Source: Salinivirgaceae bacterium (GTDB taxonomy: Bacteria; Bacteroidota; Bacteroidia; Bacteroidales; SZUA-534). From it: a stretch of DNA of 39,112 bases. Every line of letters begins with the position of its first letter. Positions within the stretch are counted from its first letter, which is position 1. The DNA lies in the NCBI GenBank assembly GCA_017557785.1, contig JAFYYA010000064.1, positions 1-39,112 of the forward strand, read 5' to 3'. Below are positions 1-26,116 of the stretch, one piece after another. Made by a program: the position numbers and the translations under genes. The notes beneath the pieces are model-generated. The model was not told where the DNA came from and made no database searches. It worked only from the letters and a program-made list of their open reading frames with translations.

Positions 1-249
1 CTTAACAATCTCGGCATCTTCCTGACGCTCCTCATACTCGTTTTCGCCAACAATGCCCACATCGGCAATGCCGCTTGCCACGGCCTGCGGAATGTCATCG
101 TCACGCAAATAAAGAACCTCTACCGGGAAATTCTTTGCCGGCACCAGCAGGGTGCGCTTTCCCGATTCCACCTTAATGCTCGACTCCGCAAGCATTGTCA
201 TTGTCTCGTCAAACAATCGGCCTTTGGCCTGTACTGCAATTCGTAACAT
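1..249 (-). CDS. hisG: ATP phosphoribosyltransferase, N-terminal part (cut by window start)
   Basis: First enzyme of histidine synthesis; condenses ATP with PRPP in the cytoplasm. Only the first 83 codons are in the window, starting at ATG 249 and running off the left edge. The protein begins MLRIAVQAKGRLFDE and continues with an SGKRTLLVPAKNFPVEVL segment, then LRDDDIPQAVASGIADVGIVG, which matches the start of the periplasmic-binding-protein-like catalytic domain of HisG. The assignment is independently supported by the leader upstream: a 12-residue peptide with six consecutive His codons followed by a terminator, so the gene is probably the first of a his operon continuing beyond the window. 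Whether it is the long form with the C-terminal regulatory domain cannot be seen. Family assignment is confident. Confidence 0.95.
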   Translation of the reverse strand, partial: MLRIAVQAKGRLFDETMTMLAESSIKVESGKRTLLVPAKNFPVEVLYLRDDDIPQAVASGIADVGIVGENEYEERQEDAEIVK

Positions 250-298: not shown

Positions 299-330
299 AA
301 ACAAGAAAGGCTCGCATTGCTGCAAGCCTT
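299..330 (-). terminator. his attenuator (intrinsic terminator before hisG)
   Basis: On the minus strand AAGGCTTGCA (321-330) and TGCGAGCCTT (307-316) pair over 10 bp with one G-U around a GCAA loop, followed by TCTTGTTT (299-306). It sits between the leader peptide and hisG. A competing pairing is possible: GCATTG (359-364) with CAATGC (314-319), which would break the terminator. The first arm begins 10 nt after the leader stop codon, so a ribosome at the stop would cover it and one stalled on the His codons would leave it free. Confidence 0.85.
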
Positions 331-373
331 TTGTATAATTTACATAGAACCAACCAGTCAATGCTCTGTTAGA

Positions 374-412
374 TTAACCAAAGTAATGATGGTGGTGATG
401 ATGCTGTAACAT
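374..412 (-). CDS. hisL: his operon leader peptide MLQHHHHHHYFG
   Basis: Too short for ordinary gene calling. On the minus strand ATG (410-412) opens a 12-codon frame, MLQHHHHHHYFG, ending in TAA (374-376). The six consecutive histidine codons (386-403) lie upstream of hisG, with a strong hairpin between. This is the classic arrangement of a histidine attenuation leader: ribosome stalling on His codons when charged tRNA-His is scarce. A promoter-like TACCTTTG (435-442) with TTG at 462-464 lies about 25 nt upstream of the ATG, so the transcript would have a short 5' end. I infer translation; it is not shown. Confidence 0.9.
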   Translation of the reverse strand: MLQHHHHHHYFG

Positions 413-434
413 TTCGTCCTAATTTTTTGTGCCA

Positions 435-464
435 CAAAGGTAAGTGCAGATTTTTAATACGCAA
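435..464 (-). promoter_or_regulatory. Bacteroidota promoter for hisL-hisG
   Basis: Minus strand: -7 element TACCTTTG (435-442) and a TTG -33 element (462-464) separated by 19 nt, matching the TAnnTTTG/TTG consensus of the primary sigma factor in this phylum. Divergent from the tRNA-Leu promoter. Confidence 0.75.
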
Positions 465-25959: not shown

Positions 25960-26116
25960 ACCACTGCACAAACGCCCCACCACACAAATTGAGCCCTGAC
26001 AGGGCGGCACTGAATGGCAATAATGGTTGTGTCACCCCTTTGGGGTTCTTTTCTTATTCCGCAACAAATCAGGGGCTTACGCCCCTGACTGTAATATTTC
26101 ACCCCTTTGGGGTTTT
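25921..26116. repeat. Hairpin-rich repeat cassette
   Basis: A series of short GC-rich hairpins in an AT-rich area: GCCCGGAACGGGC (25922-25934), GCAGTGGT-GTGA-ACCACTGC (25948-25967), GCCCTGACAGGGC (25992-26004), ACCCCTTTGGGGT (about 26034-26046), TCAGGGGC-TTAC-GCCCCTGA (about 26069-26088), ACCCCTTTGGGGT again (about 26101-26113). The GAGCCC..GGGCGRCA phrase and the ACCCCTTTGGGGTT phrase each occur twice. I know similar phrases as dispersed intergenic sequences in Bacteroidales genomes. No coding signal past 25959. Confidence 0.7.

Follow-up and report, generated by a model that had tools for sequence, protein, structure and literature searches.

The analyzed window, a stretch of 39,112 nucleotides, carries at its beginning the first part of hisG on the minus strand. 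The features upstream of and including the gene are given below in the direction of transcription, each with its basis.

462..464, minus strand: TTG, promoter element of the -33 type (sequence; comparative box counts)
435..442, minus strand: TACCTTTG, promoter element of the -7 type of Bacteroidota (sequence; comparative box counts)
374..412, minus strand: leader ORF MLQHHHHHHYFG including the stop TAA, 12 codons (read from the sequence; an ORF with a His run recurs in 141 of 237 loci)
355..364, minus strand: arm 2, GCATTGaCTG, predicted first strand of the antiterminator (fold of the RNA past a ribosome positioned at the last His codon)
314..322, minus strand: arm 3, CAGCAATGC, top of the terminator 5' arm, loop and top of the 3' arm (RNA fold)
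306..331, minus strand: intrinsic terminator hairpin of 11 bp with the loop GCAA, followed by CTTGTTT (terminator scan and family alignment)
1..249, minus strand: hisG, first 83 codons, the contig end falling within the gene (profile match TIGR00070)

The order of promoter-like boxes, leader, terminator and hisG start was found as given in a preliminary description of the region. The HisG fragment scored 69.5 bits against TIGR00070, below the cut-off of 75.75 set for the whole protein, because just 83 residues are present. One relative (L031) has hisD and then hisC after hisG. The leader with six His codons, already described at 412–374, was confirmed in the sequence: the ATG is at 412–410, the His codons (CAT CAT CAC CAC CAT CAT) at 403–386, where they double as arm 1, and the TAA at 376–374. 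The leader stop and hisG are separated by 124 nt, and this gap holds the terminator and its T-rich tail. The terminator hairpin (331–306) lies directly 5' of CTTGTTTAGG and was the one terminator-like site found in the scan (0.4 expected from shuffles).

Both RNA elements proved somewhat longer than described earlier. The stem with the GCAA loop, given as 10 bp at 330–307, includes 11 bp, and the competing pairing of GCATTG (364–359) with CAATGC (319–314) extends in the fold to 9 bp with a single bulged A, between GCATTG-a-CTG and CAGCAATGC. Arm 2 begins at the 10th nucleotide past the leader stop codon, exactly as claimed. Also the promoter said to lie directly upstream was seen, in the form of TTG (464–462) and TACCTTTG (442–435) with a spacer of 19, which we take to be -33-type and -7-type elements by the consensus for Bacteroidota. 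On the plus strand, divergent from the his leader, two tRNA-Leu genes (CAG, GAG) are present at 544–757 with a TACTTTTG box of their own at 544–551.

HisG was searched in three samples: 99 relatives (59 with a match), a Prevotella-rich collection of named genomes (the best 80 of 593 confirmed loci) and 247 genomes of the class (110 with a match). Upstream DNA was examined at 59, 80 and 101 loci, respectively; the class matches left out were, besides the window's own, those of G256, G339, G280, G282, G258, G138, G111 and G151. Removal of duplicates and short upstream regions within each sample gave 237 loci, the samples overlapping slightly (L020 and L113, for example, are one genome). A leader was defined strictly as an ATG-started ORF of 6–45 codons with at least four His in six codons, at most 350 nt upstream of hisG.

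By this rule a His-run ORF preceded hisG in 141 of the 237 loci (42 of 56 relatives, 24 of 80 named and 75 of 101 class loci), so that the conservation check suggested in the preliminary description was positive. The reverse complements included none (0 of 237), dinucleotide shuffles had means of 0.0, 0.1 and 0.1 per sample (about 0.2 in all), and by the same rule runs of any other amino acid were present in at most four loci of any sample. Under a laxer rule, which accepted three His in six codons, any start codon and a distance of up to about 270 nt, 88 of the 101 loci of the class were positive, as were 31 of 37 families. Beyond the class, in 39 loci picked to span families, a His-rich ORF with any start codon was found in 22, of which 18 had ATG, compared with one on the reverse strand and 0.1 in mononucleotide shuffles. 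Sister genomes differ in the leader by synonymous CAT/CAC changes and a one-codon indel, and among loci the peptide outside the His run is highly variable. The window itself has the short His-run ORF upstream of his genes that belongs to a ribosome-mediated his attenuator.

The 240 examined loci were divided into 76 in which the rule used detected no leader (named sample 53, relatives 10, class sample 13), 27 with a leader but no terminator found by the scan, and 137 with both, of which 128 were distinct and 127 usable for the pairing analyses. The 128 distinct loci were also surveyed for promoter boxes. A TAnnTTTG-like box was located at most 75 nt before the leader start in 107 of them, the strict TAnnTTTG in 103, with 15.9 expected from mononucleotide shuffles. 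The distance from the end of the box to the leader start codon had a median of 19 nt in these 107 loci, and a TTG was present 17–23 nt upstream of the box in 87 of them. The earlier remark that the leader would start without a Shine-Dalgarno sequence holds for the relatives, as an SD-like motif was found in only three of the 128 loci, the sequence there being otherwise A-rich; it does not hold for the window, which is among those three.

Antiterminator pairing was scored as the best unbroken helix that the region following the last His codon can form with the 5' arm plus loop of the terminator. Over the 127 loci the mean was 17.1 with the own hairpin and 13.7 with the hairpins of up to 60 other loci (p 4e-17). 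With the region shuffled it was 12.4, and 111 of the 127 loci exceeded their shuffles. When each family was represented by one locus (56), the own hairpin gave 17.3 and the others' 13.2, and none of 10,000 permutations reached the observed mean; the own pairing was higher in 49 representatives and no better than with the others' hairpins in seven. Arm 2 started at a median of 14 nt past the last His codon (interquartile range 11–17), and at 8–20 nt in 73% of the loci compared with 29% in shuffles. It was a coding part of the leader in some loci and located past the stop in others. The paired sequences vary from clade to clade; among the rows listed, they include TCGGTGGGC with GCTTGCCGA in a locus with a Bacteroides title (L056), CTCAGGCG with CGTCTGAG in loci with S-Q-A or A-Q-A leaders, which are flavobacterial by inference only, GCGGGTGG with CCACCCGC in L121, and GCAGGTAG with CTACCTGT in L222. 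An antiterminator mutually exclusive with the terminator and covarying with it is thus present in the modeled pairings. A further helix, here called the 1:2 protector, would join the His-codon region to the sequence following arm 2; it was moderately above shuffles, in 90 of the 127 loci.

Testing the duplex energy of arm 2 with the complete hairpin of its own locus did not discriminate (p 0.005 to 1.0), because the search began past the stop and arm 2 often reaches into the last codons; the helix score, with the search start moved to after the last His codon, took the place of this test. The unbroken-helix score in turn misses the antiterminator of the window, whose helix is bulged and involves the terminator 3' arm; for the window a partition-function test was used.

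The window (locus L001) belongs to family f1, in which the loop of the terminator and the top of its 3' arm are part of the predicted antiterminator, formed by GCATTGaCTG with CAGCAATGC in the window and by other letters in L002, L011, L142 and L157. The stalled-state pairing of the window was 0.71 compared with 0.33 in shuffles, two of 200 being as high, and over nine loci of the family 0 to 5.5% of shuffles reached it. The antiterminator energy was not unusual among shuffles in L011, L145 and L158, and borderline in L142. Across the 10 distinct rows of the family alignment the terminator helix was intact in 99.1% of cells (97.1% in shuffles; 4 of 500 as high) and included two pairs with a change on both sides, while the count of pair types was not above shuffles (280 of 500). 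Conservation of both stems, likewise proposed as a check, is therefore seen in the own-terminator pairing (n = 127 and 56) and in the terminator helix kept within the family.

For modeling the ribosome states, the leading edge was assumed to lie 12 nt downstream of the first nucleotide of the codon in the A site, and the RNA was taken as transcribed as far as the terminator loop, this included. Over the 127 loci, the mean probability of the upper terminator arm being paired upstream was 0.746 with the ribosome on the last His codon, 0.259 with the ribosome at the stop and 0.473 without a ribosome; the stalled value exceeded the value at the stop in 118 loci. With the spacer shuffled, the corresponding means were 0.507, 0.424 and 0.480. 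Given this edge, arm 2 starts just past the stalled ribosome. In full-length RNA the terminator had the lowest energy in every state folded, the stalled one included (five of five loci), and the switch must therefore be kinetic.

The claim that a ribosome at the stop masks arm 2 was borne out over the 127 loci as a set (0.26 at the stop versus 0.75 stalled), but in the window the masking was marginal and at the edge only (0.65 versus 0.71). The leader stop is two codons earlier in the window and in L003, L005, L006 and L007 than in the sister locus L008, and a ribosome at the stop therefore barely covers arm 2. The modeled pairing at the stop was 0.65 in the window and 0.37 in L008, and in the window it fell to 0.49 when the edge was placed 2 nt further. 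Without a ribosome it was 0.30, and in the full-length fold of the window the 3' part of arm 2, together with the bases following it, is paired with the His codons. As arm 2 is nearly free at the stop, these values make a protector hairpin the likelier device: in the window, according to the folds, the antiterminator is probably blocked by a hairpin formed by the His codons rather than by direct masking. As an unbroken run, no 1:2 protector helix of the window was above shuffles.

Leader-peptide transcription attenuation is a textbook mechanism, and the preliminary description had read the locus as a classic translation-coupled attenuator of the his operon. The comparative data are in favor of this reading in the His-codon leader, the terminator and the competing pairing. 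On sequence and modeling, which provide the ORF, terminator, competing pairing, covariation and spacing, the locus is very probably an attenuator through which ribosomes control transcription of the his operon; from them we infer that the promoter is used, that the leader is translated, that ribosomes stall on it and that read-through changes. RNA polymerase would start about 15–20 nt before the leader ATG, judging from the boxes, and a ribosome would translate the leader RNA meanwhile. When charged His-tRNA is scarce, the ribosome would stall on the His codons, leaving arm 2 free past its leading edge, and the free arm would pair with the emerging arm 3, the top of the terminator, so that transcription continues into hisG. 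When His-tRNA is plentiful, the ribosome would clear the His codons; in most relatives it would go on to cover arm 2 on reaching the stop codon or its vicinity, and in the window arm 2 would probably be paired with the His codons thus freed; in both cases the terminator would form. The cell would probably make histidine only on shortage.

A leader acting on translation instead of termination, by hiding and freeing the hisG start or by re-initiation, is unlikely at this locus. Seven loci (L124, L130, L135, L233, L235, L237 and L238) do keep a His leader without a recognizable intrinsic terminator and have hisG 58–102 nt past the leader stop, and re-initiation has been proposed for leader genes near the next gene (PMC4833913). 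The window, however, has 124 nt in this gap, holding a terminator with its T-rich tail, and arm 2 pairs with that terminator in the fold. Runs of His bind metals, and the peptide could in principle be a metal- or protein-binding product, the RNA structures then being the plain terminator of a leader gene; this is highly improbable, since the remaining peptide varies widely and arm 2 is coding in some loci and past the stop in others. That the ORF and hairpin are a chance combination of a low-complexity CAY repeat and an ordinary terminator has a practically negligible probability: CAYCAYCAYCAYCAY does match 16 times in the genome of the window, partly overlapping and 11 of them on one other contig, but the run recurs before hisG across families, with none on the other strand and any other residue in at most four loci, and arm 2 prefers its own terminator in the 127 loci and the 56 family representatives.

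In the named sample (the best 80 of 593 confirmed loci) an ATG-started ORF with three His in six codons was missing in 55. Of these 55 loci, 35 were Prevotella or Prevotellaceae by title, and none of the other 25 was, all 35 such records thus being leaderless. A TAnnTTTG box started 32–84 nt before hisG in 22 of the 30 leaderless loci listed, which looks like replacement of the attenuator by a direct promoter in them. Of the 27 leader loci without a scanned terminator, 18 were inspected, and some had bulged terminators and some none. Nine loci (the seven mentioned above, L198 and L220) have a His leader before hisG and no recognizable intrinsic terminator, and in several of the terminator-less leader loci the peptide ends in HHSS or a TTG or GTG start of hisG is close by. 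A different output, translation or Rho, is possible in the terminator-less loci. We somewhat favor a history in which the his attenuator was ancestral to Bacteroidota and kept in most lineages with its RNA arms rewritten several times, Prevotella having swapped it for a direct promoter and some lineages having kept the leader with another output than a terminator. If so, it would be genomic evidence for transcription–translation coupling from very short 5' leaders in a phylum mostly without Shine-Dalgarno initiation, because such a switch needs a ribosome close behind RNA polymerase. Switches recurring over much of the phylum could serve as natural reporters for this coupling in Bacteroidota and for ribosome loading on a short leader (roughly 10–20 nt, as the boxes suggest) without Shine-Dalgarno pairing, and could supply a read-out of histidine starvation for gut Bacteroides.

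No Rfam model reached its threshold at the his region, and in 20 related loci the only match at the gathering threshold was a tRNA. The His_leader model (RF00514, hisL) scored 26.8 bits in the window, below its gathering score of 49, and had no match at gathering level in the 20 related loci; RF01692 was not among the matches at the his region, and the T-box was absent from the seven Rfam matches up to E 10 at the window locus. In the enterobacterial his operon a leader peptide with His codons precedes hisG and is followed by a terminator and a competing antiterminator. The elements described here share all these parts, whereas most relatives are without an SD-like motif, and in most of them arm 2 is similar to the 3' arm of the terminator and follows the His codons immediately. 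The study by Lopatovskaya et al. (2010), judging by its title, may overlap part of these results. The enterobacterial leader is described likewise in part of a comparative study (PMC9413887), which also reports his attenuators from Firmicutes with three to five consecutive His codons, a terminator and an antiterminator before his operons, that is, the same list of parts in three lineages of another phylum. Its main text names Proteobacteria and Firmicutes, and neither Bacteroidetes nor Bacteroidota. The comparative literature, in the parts concerned, places his attenuators in Proteobacteria and a few Firmicutes (PMC3766115, PMC9413887), and a gammaproteobacterial origin of such motifs is suggested in one of these papers (PMC3766115). 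A 2021 study of the his genes of this superphylum (PMC8305728) speaks of attenuation a single time, in connection with S. enterica and E. coli, and its available text never uses the word leader; the term leader peptide is also absent from the main text of a transcriptome study of B. thetaiotaomicron (PMC7366714).

Closest to the present element is a structured hisG 5' element without an Rfam match in Flavobacterium psychrophilum and other Flavobacteriaceae, reported together with strong clues for leader-peptide attenuation at amino-acid operons (PMC9723704). The main text of that paper names hisG once and gives conservation for other genera of one family, and its section on the element includes no sequence or pairing for hisG. 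It is probably the flavobacterial form of the present element. As far as the sources mentioned go, the attenuation mechanism, the Flavobacteriaceae hisG element and the attenuation clues at amino-acid operons are already known, while no prior report of the wide recurrence of the his attenuator before hisG over the phylum, its covariation or its geometry was found in the open-access literature, where they are apparently unreported.

The Bacteroid-trp RNA (RF01692) has a leader role and concerns tryptophan. It is kindred in kind within Bacteroidetes, whereas the his region does not match its model. The RNA is listed as a cis-regulatory element of Bacteroidetes in the relevant part of its original description (PMC2864571). 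In the window's genus RF01692 was over threshold in three of 11 genomes, with a WWW leader, and had no match in the window's own, incomplete genome. The three leaders (L241–L243) are of the form M(N/K)(N/I)FNAYWWWQNSRLKKS. Elsewhere in the window, an Acido-Lenti-1 RNA (RF01687), a class reported for Acidobacteria and Lentisphaerae in the corresponding part of the same paper (PMC2864571), was detected on the plus strand at 26069–26114 with 43.3 bits (threshold 37).
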